This document shows, piece after piece, positions 1,996 through 19,453 of a DNA stretch of 64,000 nucleotides. The position numbers and the translations under genes were made by a program. Under the pieces are notes generated by a model. The model saw only the letters and a list, made by a program, of their open reading frames with translations. It was not told the origin of the DNA and made no database searches. Source of the stretch: Methanocaldococcus vulcanius M7. Its GTDB lineage: Archaea; AGJL01; Methanococci; Methanococcales; Methanocaldococcaceae. The stretch's first letter is position 1; each line of letters opens with the position of its first letter. The stretch is from contig NC_013407.1 of the NCBI RefSeq assembly GCF_000024625.1, positions 1,054,001 to 1,118,000 of the forward strand, in the 5' to 3' direction.

Positions 1996-2703
1996 TTATC
2001 TCCCGAGTTTGCAGAATCTTTCGACTTTTAATATTTTGGAGATTCCTGCTATTGTTGTGCCGTAGAATATTATTTTTTTGTTGTATTTTTTAGCGAGGTT
2101 CCAGATTTCTTCGAAAGTTCCGTTTGCGATGGTTGAGCCAGTTGCTAAAACAATATCTGAGTTTTTTATTACTTCTTCATTGTATTTTCCGTGGATTATT
2201 CTAACTCCATACTTTATTTTTCCAATATTTTCAGGATTTAAATCACTTACTAATACATTTTCCGCTCCAAAGGTATCTACAATCTCTTTAACAAATGCTG
2301 GTTGTAATCCAACAACCCCGATCTTCTTCGGATTTAATTCTTTTAAATATTTAACCAACTCTTTTGCACACTTCTCTGGCTCATCCCCCGAGCAGTGGAC
2401 TGTTCTATCCACTAACCCAAGATACCTCATAACTGCATTTAACGTTGCCACAACCTCTGCCCTACTTCCTTTATCCAAAAGCTCCCTTACAGTTCCTTTA
2501 AATTCAACGGGTTTATCTGTGAAGGCATCCCCATAACATCCTTTAAAATCAGCCCTCAACAAAATCTCCTTCCCACTCATCAAAGGATAATCCTTAATTC
2601 GAGTAGTATCCAACTTAGTATCAGAAATCTTTATCTCCACAACCTCATCCAATAACCTATTCTTTTCAACAAGATCTTTTAAAAACCCTCTAACATCAAC
2701 CAT
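1996..2703 (-). CDS. DUF364-type putative heavy-metal-chelating protein in a mod operon
   Basis: A 235-aa protein. The central and C-terminal part (KKIGVVGLQPAFVKEIVDTF; VLATGSTIANGTFEEI; IIFYGTTIAG) resembles the DUF364 family, annotated as a putative heavy-metal chelation domain. The start is placed at 2703 because GGTGA sits just upstream of that ATG; an in-frame ATG at 2715 overlaps the RBS. The start overlaps the stop of the permease gene by about 8 bp, so it is translationally coupled to modB and sits where an ATPase gene is usual. A role in molybdenum or tungsten handling is inferred from position only. Confidence 0.75.
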   Translation of the reverse strand: MVDVRGFLKDLVEKNRLLDEVVEIKISDTKLDTTRIKDYPLMSGKEILLRADFKGCYGDAFTDKPVEFKGTVRELLDKGSRAEVVATLNAVMRYLGLVDRTVHCSGDEPEKCAKELVKYLKELNPKKIGVVGLQPAFVKEIVDTFGAENVLVSDLNPENIGKIKYGVRIIHGKYNEEVIKNSDIVLATGSTIANGTFEEIWNLAKKYNKKIIFYGTTIAGISKILKVERFCKLGR

Positions 2704-3487
2704 AACGTTCACCATTTAGATTTATTACAAATTTCATTAACGATATGATCAATACTGCAATAATAATATGCACAACTGCAATTGCAAGTGCAAGATCTAT
2801 GTTTCCAATGGATACATTTAAAAATATAGCTATTGGAAGTGTCTCTGTCTTCATCTTTGTGGCTCCTGCAATCATCAACGTTGCTCCAAATTCTCCGATA
2901 GCTCTTGCCCATCCAAGAATCGCTCCAGCAAGTATCCCACTTTTTGCCATTGGAAGAGTTATCTTCAAAAAACTTTCAGATCTACTCAAACCCAAACTTT
3001 GAGCCACATACTCATATTTCACATCTATACTTTCAAAGACAGCTCTTGTTGTTCTAATTATAAACGGGGTTGCTATTACAAATTGTGCGAGTATTATACC
3101 ATTTTGAGTGAATACCAGATCAAGTATATTGTTAATAAATTGTCCAGTGCAATTATTTCCCAAAAATAAAAGCAATCCAAACCCAAGCACAAGAGGTGGA
3201 AGCAAGATTGGAAGATTTATTAAGCTGTCAATAATCTCCTTCCCTTTAAAGTTGTATCTTGCAAGTGCATATCCAGATGGGACACCAATCAATAGAGCGA
3301 GGATTATTGCAATAATTGAACATTTTACACTAAGAGCAACCGAAAATCTAACTTCTTCTGATACTAATGCATCAAATAAATTTTTTATAGATATGTTTTC
3401 AAGTATGGAAATTAGTATACAAACAATCATTGCTAAGAACAAAATTAATGGGATGGTTGAAATAGTTTTCAAGTTATTTTGAATCAT
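2696..3487 (-). CDS. modB: ABC transporter permease, molybdate/tungstate type (ModB/WtpB)
   Basis: A 263-aa integral membrane protein with about six helices. The EAA-like cytoplasmic loop that contacts the ATPase is visible (AQSLGLSRSESFLKITLPMA, then GWARAIGEFGATLMIAG). The GEFGAT motif is typical of sulfate/molybdate/tungstate permeases. It forms an operon with the binding-protein gene upstream (stop and start about 46 bp apart) and the DUF364 gene downstream. No ATP-binding subunit is encoded next to it; one must be supplied from elsewhere. Molybdate versus tungstate cannot be decided from sequence. Confidence 0.88.
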   Translation of the reverse strand: MIQNNLKTISTIPLILFLAMIVCILISILENISIKNLFDALVSEEVRFSVALSVKCSIIAIILALLIGVPSGYALARYNFKGKEIIDSLINLPILLPPLVLGFGLLLFLGNNCTGQFINNILDLVFTQNGIILAQFVIATPFIIRTTRAVFESIDVKYEYVAQSLGLSRSESFLKITLPMAKSGILAGAILGWARAIGEFGATLMIAGATKMKTETLPIAIFLNVSIGNIDLALAIAVVHIIIAVLIISLMKFVINLNGERYG

Positions 3488-3533
3488 AGCAAACCCCTTT
3501 AAGATTAATATTTAAGATTTAAGTTTAATCTTG

Positions 3534-4322
3534 TTAGTTCCCAATTATTTCAAAACCATATTTTTTAAATATATTTTTTCCATCTGTTAAAACGAAGTTG
3601 TAAAATTTCTCTGCATTTTCTTTATTTTTTGTAGTTTTTAATATCGCTATTGGAACTGTCTTTATAACATTGTATTTTGGATCTATTGGGATAATATCTA
3701 CCTTATCTTTATTTTCAACAGCATCAGCTCTCCAAACTATCGCAGCATCAACATCTCCTTCTATAACATACATTAAAACCTGTTTTACGGTAGCTCCTCT
3801 AACAACAACATTCTTATTAATTTTTTCTGAGATTCCTGGATTGTAGTTTTCCGCTTTTTGTAGAATCTTTTTAACTGTTCTTCCAATTGCTATGTCGTCA
3901 TCCCCTAATGCTAATTTAACTCCTGGCTTCTCCAAATCTTCAAGACATGTTATATTCTTTGGATTTCCTTTTTGGACTACAATCACAGGTATATGTTTTG
4001 TAAAATTTTCGTATTTTAGTATGTATCCTTTTTTCTCAAGTTTTCCAATGTAGAAATAAGCTCCGGGCATGAATATATCTCCTTCGTTTGATGCTAAGAT
4101 TTTTGAATAGAGATACCCGCTTCCTGCGTAGTCATACTCCAATTTTATCCCATACTTTTTTTCAAACATCTTTCCAATTTCATCCATTGGCTTTTGCATT
4201 CCAGCTCCAACATAGGCATGTATTACTTCTTCTTTAGTTTCAGTTTTTTGTGTGCATCCAGAAGCCAAAATTGTTGTTATTATTACCAATAACCCAAATA
4301 TTGATGCTATTTTTCTGTTCAT
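3534..4322 (-). CDS. modA: Extracellular molybdate/tungstate-binding lipoprotein (ModA-like)
   Basis: A 262-aa protein with an N-terminal hydrophobic segment ending in a lipobox-like LASGC, so probably a lipid-anchored surface protein. The body follows the ModA-type periplasmic binding fold: YVGAGMQKPMDEI for the oxyanion site, DYAGSGYLYSKI, GDIFMPG, and DAAIVWRADA near the C-terminus. The start is set at 4322, preceded by GTGAG; an upstream TTG at 4334 lacks a site. It is the first gene of modA-modB-DUF364 and lies back to back with the nitrogen-regulated MBL gene, suggesting that metal supply is linked to nitrogenase (inference). Confidence 0.88.
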   Translation of the reverse strand: MNRKIASIFGLLVIITTILASGCTQKTETKEEVIHAYVGAGMQKPMDEIGKMFEKKYGIKLEYDYAGSGYLYSKILASNEGDIFMPGAYFYIGKLEKKGYILKYENFTKHIPVIVVQKGNPKNITCLEDLEKPGVKLALGDDDIAIGRTVKKILQKAENYNPGISEKINKNVVVRGATVKQVLMYVIEGDVDAAIVWRADAVENKDKVDIIPIDPKYNVIKTVPIAILKTTKNKENAEKFYNFVLTDGKNIFKKYGFEIIGN

Positions 4323-4401
4323 AATCTCACTCAAATAAGAACGTGAATCATGCTTACAATTTTTTATTTTAATGTTTGCTTTTGTTATATGCTATTCATG
4401 T

Positions 4402-5363: not shown

Positions 5364-5377
5364 GGAAATAGGTTTCC
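5364..5377. promoter_or_regulatory. NrpR-type nif operator (GGAA-N6-TTCC)
   Basis: GGAAATAGGTTTCC matches GGAA-N6-TTCC exactly and lies about 17 nt downstream of the predicted nifH transcription start, a position comparable to nif operators in Methanococcus maripaludis. A degenerate GGAA-N6-AACC sequence lies upstream at 5291-5304 and is probably not a second site. Confidence 0.75.
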
Positions 5378-5393
5378 TACTACCGATAATTGA

Positions 5394-6257
<864 letters not shown>

Positions 6258-6349: not shown

Positions 6350-6667
6350 TTGAAATTAATAAAAGCAATTATAAGGCCAGAAAAAGTGGATGATGTAATT
6401 AACGCATTGGAAAATGCTGGTTATCCATCTTTCACTAAGATTGATGTTGTAGGAAGGGGGAAACAGGGTGGATTAAAGATTGGAGAAATATTCTATGACG
6501 AACTTCCAAAAACGATGCTATTAATTGGCGTTAATGACGATGAAGTGGATGAGGTCGTGGAGATCATAAAGATCAACGCCCATACAGGAAATTTTGGAGA
6601 TGGAAAGATCTTTATTCAGCCAATTGAAGAAGCTTACACGATTAGAACAGGATCTCGAGAGTTGTAG
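6350..6667 (+). CDS. nifI1: NifI1, PII-like nitrogenase switch-off regulator
   Basis: A 105-aa PII/GlnB-family protein beginning at TTG 6350 after GGGGTGG. It keeps the PII core (IIRPEKVDDVINAL; AHTGNFGDGKIFIQPIEEAYTIRTG) and has a T-loop distinct from GlnK. In methanogens NifI1 and NifI2 form a complex that binds dinitrogenase and shuts it off when 2-oxoglutarate falls after ammonia addition. Its position between nifH and nifD is diagnostic. It is followed by nifI2 only 14 bp later. Confidence 0.94.
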   Translation: MKLIKAIIRPEKVDDVINALENAGYPSFTKIDVVGRGKQGGLKIGEIFYDELPKTMLLIGVNDDEVDEVVEIIKINAHTGNFGDGKIFIQPIEEAYTIRTGSREL

Positions 6668-6681
6668 GGATCGGTGAAACG

Positions 6682-7068
6682 ATGAAAGAAATCTTAGCAA
6701 TTATTAGGCCTAACATGGTAGCAAAGACAGGAAAAGCACTTGAAGCTGTTGGATTTCCAGCAATGACGGTGATTAGTTGTTTTGGGAGAGGAAAAGAGAG
6801 GGGATATATTGATGCAAAACTTCCCGAAGATGTAGATAAAGAGAAAATCCTCAAAGAAGGAGAAAAGTTGGGAATGAGAATGAAATATATTCCAAAAAGA
6901 ATGATCTCGATAGTTGTGGATGACACAGATGTCCCTCTCGTAGTGGGAATAATAATGAAGATAAATAAAACTGGAAAGCCAGGAGATGGAAAAATATTCG
7001 TTATGCCAATTGATGAGGCAATAAGAATAAGAACAGGAGAGTTTGGAATTGAAGCAATAGGAAACTAA
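6682..7068 (+). CDS. nifI2: NifI2, PII-like nitrogenase switch-off regulator
   Basis: A 128-aa PII-family protein with IIRPNMVAKTGKALEAVGFPAMTV at the N-terminus, a longer T-loop region (about 36-75), and the [23 protein letters not shown] core. It partners NifI1 in direct inhibition of NifDK. The start ATG follows CGGTGAAACG. nifD starts about 86 bp further on after another GGTGAAA site, so the genes are probably cotranscribed. Confidence 0.94.
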   Translation: MKEILAIIRPNMVAKTGKALEAVGFPAMTVISCFGRGKERGYIDAKLPEDVDKEKILKEGEKLGMRMKYIPKRMISIVVDDTDVPLVVGIIMKINKTGKPGDGKIFVMPIDEAIRIRTGEFGIEAIGN

Positions 7069-7154: not shown

Positions 7155-8591
7155 ATGCCCTTTGTGTTATTGGGTTGCGATAAACCCATACCTGAAAGAA
7201 TGAAGCATACTTACATTTACGATCCAGAGGAGGAGATAATCCCTGCCTGTAATATTAAAACGGTTCCGGGAGATATGACTGAAAGAGGTTGCACATTTGC
7301 AGGAGGTAGGGGAGTCGTTGGAGGGCCGATAAAAGATGTTATACATATGGTTCATGGCCCTGTAGGGTGTGCTTATTACACTTGGGGAACAAGAAGAAAT
7401 CTATCTGATTGTGAGTTGCATAGAAGATACTGCTTTACAACAGACATGCAAGAGGCAGATGTTGTTTATGGGGGAGAGAAAAAACTTGAAAAAGCTTGTT
7501 TAGAGGCAGCCGCAGAATTTCCAGAAGCAAAGGGAATTATCATTTATGCAACATGCACAACGGGTTTGATCGGAGATAATTTGGGAGCAGTTGCAAAAAA
7601 AGTAGAAGAAAAAATAGGAAAACCTGTCTTTGCTTGCAACTGTCCGGGATATGCAGGTTGTTCTCAATCAAAAGGACACCACATATTTAACACAGAGTTT
7701 TACAGATGGCTAAAAAAAGCAAGGGAGAAATTTCCAGAAAAATGTTTAAAAGAAGAGGAAAAAACACCCTACGATATAGCAATAGTTGGAGAGTATAATA
7801 TGGACTGGGACATGGCAGTTATAAAGCCGTTATTTGAAAAAATCGGGTGTAGGGTTGTAACTGTCTTTACTGGAAACGCTTCGTTTGATGATTTGTTTAA
7901 ATTGCCAGATGTTAAGTTGTGTGTCGTTCACTGTCAGAGATCTGCCAACTATATTGCAGAGATGATTAGAGACGGATTTAATATACCAAGAATTTGGGTT
8001 TCATTATTTGGAATTGAACAGACAGCTGAGGCGTTAAGAAAAACAGCAGAATCATTAAATATACCAATGGATAGAGTTGAAGAAGTTATAAAAGAGGAAA
8101 TTGAGTCAATAAAACCACAAATAGAGTTCTATAAATCAAAATTAGAAGGAAAAACCTGTCTTGTTTATGTTGGAGGGCCAAGAACATGGCACTGGGTTAG
8201 AGCGATGAAAGAACTTGGAATAAAATATGTCGTTGCATGTTGCACATTTGCTCATGAAGATGATTATGAAAAATTAAATAAAAACTTTAAAAAAGCGGGA
8301 CTTAAAGGTGTTTTAGTTATCGATGCCCCTAACGAACTCGAATTAGAAGAAGCGGTTGAGAAATACAAACCCGACTTTATGCTTACTGGATTAAAAGAAA
8401 GATATTTATTCAGAAAATTTGGAATTCCGACAATCAACTCTCACAGCTATGAACAGGGACCATATGCAGGTTTTAGAGGATTCGTTAACTTTGCAAGAGA
8501 TATTTATAAAGCAATTTATCATCCAATTTGGGATATTGTAAAAGAAGGAGAGAAAAAATTCGAAGGGCTTAAAAAATGCGAAAATATATAA
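7155..8591 (+). CDS. nifD: Nitrogenase alpha subunit (NifD; vanadium/iron-nitrogenase-like loop)
   Basis: A 478-aa protein. P-cluster cysteines are visible at C46, C72 and C134; cofactor ligands at C260 (VHCQRS) and H430 (NSHSYEQGPY); and the catalytic Gln/His pair in SQSKGHH (Q171, H175). The loop near residue 340 reads GGPRTWHW, like GGPRLWHW of VFe protein and unlike GGLRPRH of MoFe protein; the N-terminus and the GPYAGF..FARDIYKAIYHP end also look Vnf/Anf-like. All ligands needed for an active enzyme are present. Metal content cannot be read from sequence, and no delta-subunit gene is seen here. Confidence 0.95.
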   Translation: MPFVLLGCDKPIPERMKHTYIYDPEEEIIPACNIKTVPGDMTERGCTFAGGRGVVGGPIKDVIHMVHGPVGCAYYTWGTRRNLSDCELHRRYCFTTDMQEADVVYGGEKKLEKACLEAAAEFPEAKGIIIYATCTTGLIGDNLGAVAKKVEEKIGKPVFACNCPGYAGCSQSKGHHIFNTEFYRWLKKAREKFPEKCLKEEEKTPYDIAIVGEYNMDWDMAVIKPLFEKIGCRVVTVFTGNASFDDLFKLPDVKLCVVHCQRSANYIAEMIRDGFNIPRIWVSLFGIEQTAEALRKTAESLNIPMDRVEEVIKEEIESIKPQIEFYKSKLEGKTCLVYVGGPRTWHWVRAMKELGIKYVVACCTFAHEDDYEKLNKNFKKAGLKGVLVIDAPNELELEEAVEKYKPDFMLTGLKERYLFRKFGIPTINSHSYEQGPYAGFRGFVNFARDIYKAIYHPIWDIVKEGEKKFEGLKKCENI

Positions 8592-8613
8592 ATTTTAACT
8601 TTTGGGTGATCGC

Positions 8614-10008
8614 ATGGCTATAAATTATGTTGAAAAACAGAGAGCAGGGACTATAAACCCAAATAAAACATGTCAACCAATTGGGGCAATGTGGGCTACT
8701 TTGGGAGTACATAAAGGGATTCCATTTGTCCAGGGATCTCAGGGATGTTGCACATATGTAAGATACGCATTTAACAGACATTTTAGAGAACCTGCAACGA
8801 TTGCAGTTGCTTCATTTCACGAAGATGCTGCTGTTTATGGAGGAATGAGAAATTTAGTGGAAGGTTTAAGAAATTTAGTAGCAAGATATGATCCTGAGTT
8901 AATTTCAGTTGTAACAACGTGTTCCTCTGAGACAATAGGAGATGATATAGAAGCATTTATTAGGGCAGCAAGAAAAAAGATTGCCTCAGAATTTGGGGAG
9001 GAAAAAGCAAAACTTCCAATAATTCCAATTCACTGCCCATCGTATCAAGCAAGCCACGTTAAAGGATATGATAACGCGGTTAAGGCATTCTTTCAGTATT
9101 TTACCTCTGGAAAGAAAAGAGACGAAGAAAAAGCTAAAAAAATAATGATAGTTCCAGGATTTGGTGTAAACCCGGGAGACATTTTAGAGATTAAGAGAAT
9201 ATTGAATATGTTTGGTTTAAAAGAAGGAGAGGATTATTCCGTTTTATTTGACATTAGTGAAACGCTTTATCAACCTCTCAGAGCACCAATTAGAGAAATT
9301 CCTTACTATCCAAGTGGTGGAACAAAAGTTGAGGAATTTGAAGATATAATAAATGCAAAAGCCATTTTCATCCTTTGTAAGCATGCAGGAGGAAGTGGAG
9401 CAGTATTTTTGGAGAGGAGATATAAAATTCCTGCTTATTATGGATTACCAATAGGAATTAAAAATACGGATGATTTTATTATAAATATTGCAAAGATCAC
9501 CGGATTAGAGATTCCAGATAAGTTATTGGATGAAAGAGGAAAGTTGGTTGATGCAATAGTTGATACCATCCACTACACCATGGATAAAAAAGTTGGTATA
9601 TTTGGAGATCCGGACTTTGTTATATCTGTTTCACGGTTTGTGTGTGAAATGGGAATGAAACCGACTGTTGTTAATACTCAAACTCCATCTACAACCTATA
9701 AAAAGGCAATGGAGGAGCTTGCAAATGAATATAACATAGATATTGAAGTCCAATACTCCGATCTGTGGGACTTTGAAAAATCAGTTAAAAAGGAGGAGAT
9801 AGATCTTCTCATCGGGCATCCAAGAGGAGGAGTTAAAATAGCCGAAGATATGGGTATAGGATTGGTAAGAATGGGATTCCCAATATATGACAGAGTTGGT
9901 TATTTCAGATGGCCAATTGTTGGATATATGGGAAGTTTAAGGTTTTTTGATGAGATAGTTAATACAATATTAGACACGCAAGTTCCATGGGATCAAAAAC
10001 AACAATAA
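8614..10008 (+). CDS. nifK: Nitrogenase beta subunit (NifK, short form)
   Basis: A 464-aa protein. The start is set at ATG 8614 (MAINYVEKQ), preceded by GGGTGAT; an in-frame TTG at 8602 overlaps that site. P-cluster cysteines are visible at C20 (NKTCQPIGA), C45 (GSQGCCTYVR) and C103 (TTCSSETIGDD). The first cysteine lies about 50 residues nearer the N-terminus than in Mo-type NifK, so the N-terminal extension is missing, as in AnfK and VnfK. It follows nifD closely. No nifE, nifN or nifX follows, which is unusual for a nif operon. Confidence 0.95.
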   Translation: MAINYVEKQRAGTINPNKTCQPIGAMWATLGVHKGIPFVQGSQGCCTYVRYAFNRHFREPATIAVASFHEDAAVYGGMRNLVEGLRNLVARYDPELISVVTTCSSETIGDDIEAFIRAARKKIASEFGEEKAKLPIIPIHCPSYQASHVKGYDNAVKAFFQYFTSGKKRDEEKAKKIMIVPGFGVNPGDILEIKRILNMFGLKEGEDYSVLFDISETLYQPLRAPIREIPYYPSGGTKVEEFEDIINAKAIFILCKHAGGSGAVFLERRYKIPAYYGLPIGIKNTDDFIINIAKITGLEIPDKLLDERGKLVDAIVDTIHYTMDKKVGIFGDPDFVISVSRFVCEMGMKPTVVNTQTPSTTYKKAMEELANEYNIDIEVQYSDLWDFEKSVKKEEIDLLIGHPRGGVKIAEDMGIGLVRMGFPIYDRVGYFRWPIVGYMGSLRFFDEIVNTILDTQVPWDQKQQ

Positions 10009-10045: not shown

Positions 10046-10375
10046 ATGATCGTTGAGTTTAAAAAATATGACGAATTCGGGAACATTGTAGAAGGAGATA
10101 ACTTCCATTGTATTGTTTTTTACATAAAAAAGAAAGAAATTCCTCACAAAGATGCTATACTGTTTGAGGCAGTAAAGGTAGAAAATATCCCCGGAATTGT
10201 TGCAAAATATCTAATAGATGAGATCGAAGGAGGTTATGGGGATCCTGAGGAGATTAAAAACGTTGAAGAATTAAAAAAATTTGGAGTTCCAGATGATATA
10301 ATCGATGCAATAGAGGAAACCTTAAAAAAATATGGCATAAATTGGCTTTTCAGAGTTAGAGAAGCAAATAAATAA
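10046..10375 (+). CDS. Unknown 109-aa protein downstream of nifK
   Basis: Not recognised. An acidic, soluble protein without signal or membrane segments; MIVEFKKYDEFGNIVEG at the N-terminus suggests beta strands and the C-terminal half looks helical (EEIKNVEELKKFGVPDDIIDAIEETLKKYG). It lies 37 bp after nifK, with a weak GGGA site before the ATG, and is likely cotranscribed with nif. It does not resemble VnfG/AnfG delta subunits or AnfO as I remember them. Position suggests a nitrogenase accessory role, but no function can be assigned. Confidence 0.7.
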   Translation: MIVEFKKYDEFGNIVEGDNFHCIVFYIKKKEIPHKDAILFEAVKVENIPGIVAKYLIDEIEGGYGDPEEIKNVEELKKFGVPDDIIDAIEETLKKYGINWLFRVREANK

Positions 10376-10420: not shown

Positions 10421-10669
10421 ATGTGTTATGGAGAAATCGGAATCTTTAAGGGCTTTATAGTAAAAGGAGATGTTAGAGTTCCCTTAATTGAAATAAACGG
10501 AGAAGTGAGGGAAATAATGATTCCAATATCTCAAAATGTTAAGATCGGAGATAAAGTTATGGTTTACAACTCTTACAATTTTGATTATGAGTTTAATTAT
10601 ATAAATATTGAGGCACTTAAATTAGCACTATCTATGATTCAAAATGTCAAATCTCTGTTAATTCATTGA
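10421..10669 (+). CDS. Divergent HypC/HupF-like small chaperone
   Basis: An 82-aa protein starting MCYGEIG, comparable to the MC(L/I)..PG start of HypC, whose Cys2 carries the Fe(CN)2CO unit in hydrogenase assembly. The body (INGEVREIMIPISQNVKIGDKVMVYNSYNF) follows the HypC OB-fold pattern, ending in a helical tail. The HAGFA-type segment with its conserved His, usual in true HypC, is replaced. GGTGAT precedes the ATG. It is the last gene of the nif region, so a metal-delivery or assembly role for nitrogenase is conceivable but unproven. Confidence 0.65.
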   Translation: MCYGEIGIFKGFIVKGDVRVPLIEINGEVREIMIPISQNVKIGDKVMVYNSYNFDYEFNYINIEALKLALSMIQNVKSLLIH

Positions 10670-17732: not shown

Positions 17733-18080
<348 letters not shown>

Positions 18081-18178
18081 TCATTTTTCAGTGGTTTAAT
18101 TTTTGTTTAGTGATGATCTTGTTTTAATCATTTTTATTTTTATCTGAAAGGAAAAAAGATACTCTGTTCCTAAATAAT

Positions 18179-18198
18179 AAGAAGGAAAATTCCTTCTT
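18179..18198. promoter_or_regulatory. Perfect palindrome between glnK and amtB, overlapping NrpR-like half sites
   Basis: AAGAAGGAA-AA-TTCCTTCTT is a perfect 9-bp inverted repeat with a 2-bp centre, just upstream of the amtB BRE/TATA. Read in the NrpR frame it gives two overlapping imperfect sites (AGAA-N6-TTCC and GGAA-N6-TTCT). It is well placed to control both divergent genes. Confidence 0.55.
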
Positions 18199-18205
18199 TG
18201 GAAAA

Positions 18206-18216
18206 GTATATATTTA
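18206..18216 (+). promoter_or_regulatory. Putative amtB TATA box
   Basis: GGAAAAGTATATATTTAAG contains a TATA element, predicting a start near 18240 and placing any ATG before that (such as 18218) outside the message. This supports the amtB start at 18293. Confidence 0.6.
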
Positions 18217-18292
18217 AGTGTTTCTATTAGAGGAATTAGGAAGATGGGTAGTAGGTAGGTCAATTCCTATAAAAGTGTTTGAGGTGAAACAT

Positions 18293-19453
18293 ATGGATGG
18301 TGTTAATGTTTTCTTTTTTATGTGGGCTGCATCGTTGATATTTTTTATGAAAGCAGGGTTTATAGCGTTGGAAATCGGACAATTTAGGGCTAAAAACGTA
18401 TCATATCATTGTGTTTTAAAGTTATTGGATTTGGCAGCGGTGTTTATCGCTTATCTATTTATTGGTTATGGGATCTCCTATGGTTTGGAGAATATACTCC
18501 CCCTGATAACAGGAACATTTAACGCCGATTTGGGAGCTTGGTGGATGAAGATGGTTATGTTTGCCGCTGCTGCTGTAACTATAATAACAGGAGGGGTTGC
18601 TGAGAGAATAAAAATTCTACCTTACTTTATTGGTGCTTTAATAGTTGGAGGTATTTTATATCCAATTGTTGAGCACTTGGTTTGGGGAGGCGGTTTTGCC
18701 AGTTTGATGGGAATTAACTTCCACGATTTTGCAGGAAGTGGGGCAGTTCATTTGTTTGGAGGTTTGGTTGGTTTAATGGCTGCTTATGTCTTAGGACCAA
18801 GAATTGACAAATATATAAATGGAAAACCACAGGCAATTCCTGGGCATAATATTCCAATAGCTGTTTTAGGGGCTTTTATATTAGCGTTTGGATGGTATGG
18901 ATTTAACGTTGGAAGTGCTTCAGATCTATCAAGCGGTGTTGAGTTAGCAAGCGTGGCTTTGGCAACCACTATGGCCTTAGCAGGAGGAATTATAGGAGGG
19001 GCGTTAAGCTCAAGAAACGATCCTCTCTACACAGCTAACGGTATGTGTGCTGGTTTAGTCGCTGTTTGTAGTGGAGCGGATATATTCACACCAATTGGTG
19101 CTTTAATAGTTGGATTGATTGCAGGTCTTCAACAACCATTTACCTACAAGTTTATAGAAGAAAAGTTAAAGATTGATGATGTCTGTGCTATCGGCCCAGT
19201 TCATGCAATGAGTGGATTAATTGGAGTTATCTGTGCAGGAATCCCATTTTTATTGAGATCAGATGCTGTTTCTAAGGTCTCTTTAACTGGGCAAATAATT
19301 GGAGCCATTGTTATTGCTTTAATTGCAATTGTTGGAGGATTAATTATCTACAAAGGATTAGATCTAACTATCGGTTTAAGAGTCGATAAAGAAGCAGAAA
19401 AAGTCGGTTTAGATAGTGCAATCTTGCAAACAACTGCATACTCAGAAGAATAG
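18293..19453 (+). CDS. amtB: Ammonium transporter AmtB
   Basis: A 386-aa membrane protein with about eleven helices. The twin-His pore residues lie in SGAVHLFGGLVG and GPVHAMSGLIG; GGVAERIK and FILAFGWYGFNVGSA are further Amt signatures. It imports ammonium. The start is ATG 18293 (MDGVNVFFFMWAASL) after GAGGTGAAAC; the longer frame to 18218 begins in the promoter. Regulation by the adjacent GlnK is expected from the family. Confidence 0.96.
   Translation: MDGVNVFFFMWAASLIFFMKAGFIALEIGQFRAKNVSYHCVLKLLDLAAVFIAYLFIGYGISYGLENILPLITGTFNADLGAWWMKMVMFAAAAVTIITGGVAERIKILPYFIGALIVGGILYPIVEHLVWGGGFASLMGINFHDFAGSGAVHLFGGLVGLMAAYVLGPRIDKYINGKPQAIPGHNIPIAVLGAFILAFGWYGFNVGSASDLSSGVELASVALATTMALAGGIIGGALSSRNDPLYTANGMCAGLVAVCSGADIFTPIGALIVGLIAGLQQPFTYKFIEEKLKIDDVCAIGPVHAMSGLIGVICAGIPFLLRSDAVSKVSLTGQIIGAIVIALIAIVGGLIIYKGLDLTIGLRVDKEAEKVGLDSAILQTTAYSEE

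Follow-up and report, generated by a model that had tools for sequence, protein, structure and literature searches.

By its sequence, the nitrogenase component NifDK of Methanocaldococcus vulcanius belongs to a clade known in the literature as F-Mc (for Firmicutes and Methanococci), which is counted among the 'uncharacterized' nitrogenases, and judged by its relatives it is almost certainly a molybdenum-dependent enzyme. It is encoded in the window analysed here, a stretch of 64,000 nucleotides on a 1.746 Mb contig (G000:C1:1054001-1118000), in which the operon is intact in the order nifH-nifI1-nifI2-nifD-nifK. Molybdenum is the expected metal because the relative M. thermolithotrophicus depends on it and M. 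infernus is reported to. Deprived of Mo, M. thermolithotrophicus fails to grow on N2 whether or not V is supplied, and tungstate does not inhibit it (PMC9765008); growth of M. infernus on N2 is impaired when Mo is lacking, and its nitrogenase has been called molybdenum-dependent (PMC13381448). We infer both the metal and the regulation of the M. vulcanius enzyme from such relatives. Counting against molybdenum are P358 and N440, which are V-type states, and the absence of nifN, which canonical FeMo-cofactor synthesis needs. The clade, the loop over the cofactor, a near-neighbour structure and the metal in relatives are already known; a false lead is removed here, as the PRxWH loop and the short NifK must not be taken as signs of vanadium dependence.

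Operon organization and phylogenetic placement

The nif genes are real and conserved, and chance is no issue. On the plus strand, as are all genes of the operon, nifH (5403..6257) encodes a nitrogenase iron protein of 284 amino acids matching TIGR01287 with 447.8 bits (cut-off 394). The NrpR-operator-like palindrome GGAAATAGGTTTCC (5364..5377, plus strand) lies 25 bases upstream; it is an exact GGAA-N6-TTCC whose count over the window is not significant, yet its position is as expected. A GGAA-N6-TTCC-type element is also found 5' of nifH in genome G007 (locus L113 6311-6324), which by gene order fits Methanocaldococcus sp. FS406-22 (PMC8809328), and NrpR-operator-like elements also precede hp4-nifE in M. 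vulcanius (L126 8243-8256) and in G007. Two PII-family regulators with P-II family matches follow, nifI1 (6350..6667, 105 aa), which every Methanococcales cluster compared has between nifH and nifD, and nifI2 (6682..7068, 128 aa), likewise in conserved order. The alpha subunit gene nifD (7155..8591, 478 aa, loop VGGPRTWHW) matches TIGR01862 with 549.6 bits. For the beta subunit gene nifK (8614..10008), whose best NCBIfam model is nifK, the open frame begins at TTG 8602; the likeliest start is ATG 8614, giving 464 aa, and is favoured because a 951-bit match to 9spz_B spans the whole length. Downstream lie hp1 (10046..10375, 109 aa, function unknown), found 3' of nifK in 12/12 Methanococcales genomes of the clade and absent from the Methanococcus-type cluster, and hp2 (10421..10669, 82 aa), a putative HypC-like small protein.

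Upstream, on the minus strand, are two parts of a molybdate ABC transporter, modA (3534-4334, TIGR01256) and modB (2696-3487, TIGR02141), both over the curated cut-offs, together with a DUF364 gene of the mod operon (1996..2715, PF04016). The initial annotation's observations of a Mo-type transporter nearby and of nif-like genetics, with nifI1 and nifI2 between nifH and nifD, are therefore borne out. The mod genes adjoin nif in M. vulcanius and in 5/7 Methanothermococcus-type clusters. In addition, a PII-family glnK gene on the minus strand stands divergent from an ammonium-transporter-like gene (17733-19453) ~7 kb downstream of the nif cluster. As proposed, NifH would hand electrons to the P-cluster of NifDK, from which they would go to a cofactor of the FeMo type, with Cys260 and His430 as its ligands; NifI1/NifI2 would switch activity, NrpR would repress the operon, and ModAB(C) would supply molybdate.

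Trees were built by a quick method, that of NifD being rooted on NifE, with the root itself unsure owing to the long NifE branches. M. vulcanius lies inside a Methanococcales group (SH-aLRT 100) that joins Firmicutes and Thermodesulfatator (99), outside Mo (Nif-I/II; 99) and outside Vnf+Anf (100). Its clade comprises Methanococcales, one Archaeoglobaceae MAG, Firmicutes and Thermodesulfatator, and forms one branch (support 88) with (Methanococcus clade,(Vnf,Anf)); the rooted tree divides Mo (Nif-I/II) from everything else. This topology repeats that of Garcia et al. (PMC7216921). Clade membership is the same in the NifK tree, for which AU tests rejected both grouping the Methanococcales rows with Mo (p 0.0009) and joining them directly to V/Fe alone (p 0.0007). 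NifD and NifK alike group with thermophilic Firmicutes, Methanocaldococcus and Methanothermococcus, and neither falls in Nif-I/II or Vnf/Anf. NifD does not fall inside Nif-I/Nif-II, let alone well inside it, and its loop is of neither the GGLRxRH nor the GGSRxHx type; nor do NifD and NifK branch with VnfD and VnfK. Both trees support the earlier description of the enzyme as early-branching and as lying beyond the usual Mo clades; the group, suspected at that time to be known, is the F-Mc clade (PMC7216921).

The nifHI1I2DK-hp1 cluster of the Archaeoglobaceae MAG (L033; NifD 75% identity) is nested among the Methanococcales enzymes and reflects either lateral transfer or mis-binning. The uncharacterised nitrogenase lineage also occurs in Thermodesulfatator, Schekmanbacteria and Bathyarchaeota MAGs (L038, L039, L046).

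Cofactor ligands and assembly without NifN

All cluster ligands that had been listed for NifD are kept, with C46, C72, C134, Q171, H175, C260 and H430 aligning with C62, C88, C154, Q191, H195, C275 and H442 of A. vinelandii. The genome encodes four PF00148 proteins, which are NifD, NifK, one NifE-like protein (C1:845 kb) and a short CfbD-like protein, and nifN is therefore absent. The F-Mc trait of nifB and nifE with no nifN in most members was found to hold in M. vulcanius, in which a NifB-like frame at C1:1441685 matches 289/441 model positions, below the TIGR01290 cut-off.

Published work has already raised the question of how the F-Mc clade builds its cofactor without NifN. A molybdenum enzyme whose cofactor would be a variant ('proto') form and not standard FeMo-co, assembled by NifE alone, with Hp4 or with NifK, has been proposed for the clade (PMC7216921) and discussed since (PMC8809328), and the missing nifN and the single NifE-like gene, accompanied by hp4, at C1:845 kb are in keeping with it. 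However, the cofactor ligands, Q191, H195 and K426 are all kept, Methanothermococcus-type members of the clade possess both E- and N-like genes, and a solved structure exists that may already settle the identity of the cofactor. We consider such a variant unlikely for M. vulcanius.

Lie et al. described hp2 as having no detectable homology. The protein begins with Met-Cys in 7/7 copies (the window and L113, L114, L115, L116, L117 and L118). In hhalign its profile matches that of HypC in the same register (62%), with a score of 29.4 compared to 16.8 or less in 100 shuffles, and Foldseek placed HypC structures among the best matches of its predicted model (pLDDT 73), mostly at probability 0.8-0.98 with E of 0.05 or worse. 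The match to Pfam HupF_HypC is below the cut-off, a PDB profile search with hp2 gave noise only, and the genome also encodes its own HypC. Together, profile and model are suggestive of a HypC-like protein. It is a long shot that nitrogenase would have recruited hp2 as a metallocentre chaperone of the HypC type, to finish or hand over the Mo cofactor alongside NifE and Hp4; if true, NifN-less archaea would complete their Mo cofactor with a hydrogenase-style helper. In the literature searched, hp2 has not yet been raised regarding NifN-less cofactor assembly. A published deletion spanning hp1-hp2-hp3-fd had proved neutral in standard medium.

In G007 the mod and nif genes form one contiguous island, modA-modB-DUF364-modC-leuD-nifHI1I2DK-hp1-hp2-hp4-nifE. 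The M. vulcanius island is in two pieces ~216 kb apart (window 1996-4334 and L126 5833-10269, the latter at G000:C1:841-847 kb), a split that separates modA-modB from modC and nifDK from nifE. Each half has a copy of DUF364, the copies being 99.7% identical over 720 bp, and the second copy adjoins modC and hp4-nifE. As NrpR-operator-like sites stand 5' of both nifH and hp4-nifE, co-regulation of the two halves probably survives the split. A further Methanocaldococcus genome, G008 (L124, G008:C52; 86% complete, 70 contigs), has hp4-nifE and no nifD match, through either loss of the structural genes or missing sequence.

The cofactor loop, NifK length and the delta subunit

The loop of NifD reads YVGGPRTWHW; GGPRTWHW, the form given by the initial annotation, begins at residue 340. 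Garcia et al. 2020 (PMC7216921) list active-site residues unique to V, Fe, V+Fe and Mo enzymes, and these served to score 65 rows of NifD. M. vulcanius carries two of the 12 V- or V/Fe-unique residues (A. vinelandii numbering), P358 and N440, and its loop is not TGGPRL; all 11 Methanococcales relatives score the same 2/12, VnfD rows 11-12 and Mo rows 0, and AnfD rows carry 6/6 of the V/Fe-unique set. Positions 355 and 360 are Val and Thr, not Thr355 and Leu360. A65, G69, R96, CQRS, K426 and E427 are Mo-type, and T380 is among the diagnostic sites that are Mo-type or neither. P358 and W361 are present in every F-Mc, Chloroflexi-clade and Methanococcus-clade NifD row compared, the last of which we take to be M. 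maripaludis and M. vannielii. In Fe enzymes Trp361 is retained, whereas position 358 is Ser. From this distribution across the F-Mc, Chloroflexi, Methanococcus and V clades, Pro358 and Trp361 probably predate V use. McGlynn et al. 2013 had already characterized the uncharacterised group, with M. infernus as an example, by GxPRxWH with Ala65, Gly69 and Arg96, and inferred FeMo-co for it (PMC3578447); the same traits are present here (G-x-P-R-x-W-H, Ala65, Gly69, Arg96), with no positive charge at 380.

A vanadium-capable or mixed-metal enzyme, in which the PRxWH loop lets the site accept a V-type cofactor, is highly improbable. NifD does share P358 and W361 with VnfD and N440 with V/Fe enzymes, scores over the cut-off of the alt_nitrog_alph model, and has VnfD as its best PDB match beyond the clade. 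However, two residues of the TGGPRL loop, T355 and L360, which Garcia et al. connect with the carbonate loop of the FeV-cofactor (PMC7216921), are missing, as are K380, K96, C65 and R426, and the genome has no delta subunit gene. Relatives with the same loop, which is present as GGPRTWH in 7/7 Methanothermococcus-type genomes compared, fix N2 only with Mo (PMC9765008, PMC13381448), V being no substitute (PMC9765008), and P358/W361 also occur in the Methanococcus type, whose nitrogenase is Mo-dependent in M. maripaludis (PMC10390477). As the PRxWH loop is general to the archaeal and uncharacterised lineage, it is no sign of V, and P358/W361 were rejected as a metal marker on their distribution over the 65 rows. 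The labels 'vanadium-type' for the loop and 'mixed' for the nitrogenase consequently fall away; the V-like residues had been named selectively and the more numerous Mo-type residues omitted.

The short N-terminus of NifK was confirmed, its first P-cluster Cys being preceded by 19 residues (from ATG 8614). On the longest frame, which was used for all rows compared, the count is 23, relative to 19-48 in Vnf/Anf, 20-33 in the Methanococcus clade, 22 in group-II-like Mo rows (L109, L071) and 39-106 in the other (Nif-I-type) Mo rows; NifK of C. pasteurianum (1mio_B) has 458 residues. Because group-II Mo enzymes also have a short NifK, the feature is not the V/Fe mark it had been read as, and was rejected as such.

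The reported lack of VnfG/AnfG was upheld: AnfG_VnfG (PF03139) matched nothing genome-wide at E<=10, in a search whose control included one genome that passes the cut-off, and this absence fits a Mo enzyme. Delta subunits are helical. It is barely conceivable that hp1, near VnfG/AnfG in size and position and strictly linked to the clade's nifK in Methanococcales, would be an unrecognised delta subunit making a three-subunit enzyme, given that profile comparison with VnfG/AnfG shows no similarity (probability 0.3%), that its AF2 model (pLDDT 88) is beta-rich with no PDB fold match, and that its sequence matches no PDB chain despite the NifD and NifK chains of 9spz/9sq3; we reject it as a hidden delta subunit. 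By gene order hp1 seems to correspond to nifX of M. thermolithotrophicus, which is transcribed like nifDK (PMC9765008), a point in favour of the delta role, but deletion of hp1 in FS406-22 left near-wild-type diazotrophy with no clear effect (PMC8809328). The best match in a PDB profile search with hp1, a repetitive P22 protein, was discarded as noise, its score being summed from weak repeats.

Comparison with known nitrogenases

The chain 9spz_A is identical over all 476 residues compared to NifD of genome G003, which we take to be M. infernus, and through that genome 9spz/9sq3 are presumably M. infernus NifDK. M. vulcanius NifD is identical to 9spz_A at 417/476 residues (88%) with the same loop, and NifK matches over nearly its full length. 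The M. infernus cluster has the same gene order, with hp1, hp2 and hp4 present, but holds hp4-nifE inside the same cluster, which in M. vulcanius is ~216 kb distant. FS406-22 (G007) is closer still in NifD (96% identical) and shares nifH-I1-I2-D-K-hp1-hp2, hp4-nifE and the lack of nifN; unlike M. vulcanius, its mod-nif island is single. M. thermolithotrophicus is of the same clade, with the same loop in its type of genome, mod genes by the nif operon and a Mo-dependent enzyme (PMC9765008), although a NifN-like gene is kept there and hp4 was not found.

With the VFe protein VnfDGK of A. vinelandii (5n6y), the M. vulcanius enzyme has in common P358, W361, N440, a short NifK and an N-terminal LL-CDK-IPER stretch, but it is without the delta subunit and without T355, L360, K380, K96, C65 and R426, and it lies outside the V/Fe clade. 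With the MoFe protein NifDK of A. vinelandii (1m1n) it shares all ligands, A65, G69, R96, K426 and E427, whereas that protein has the loop GGLRPRH, a long NifK N-terminus and Glu at residue 440 (Gln in most), and belongs to a different clade. The M. vulcanius nitrogenase is best regarded as a typical representative of an archaeal lineage that is already known, depends on Mo and for the most part has no NifN.
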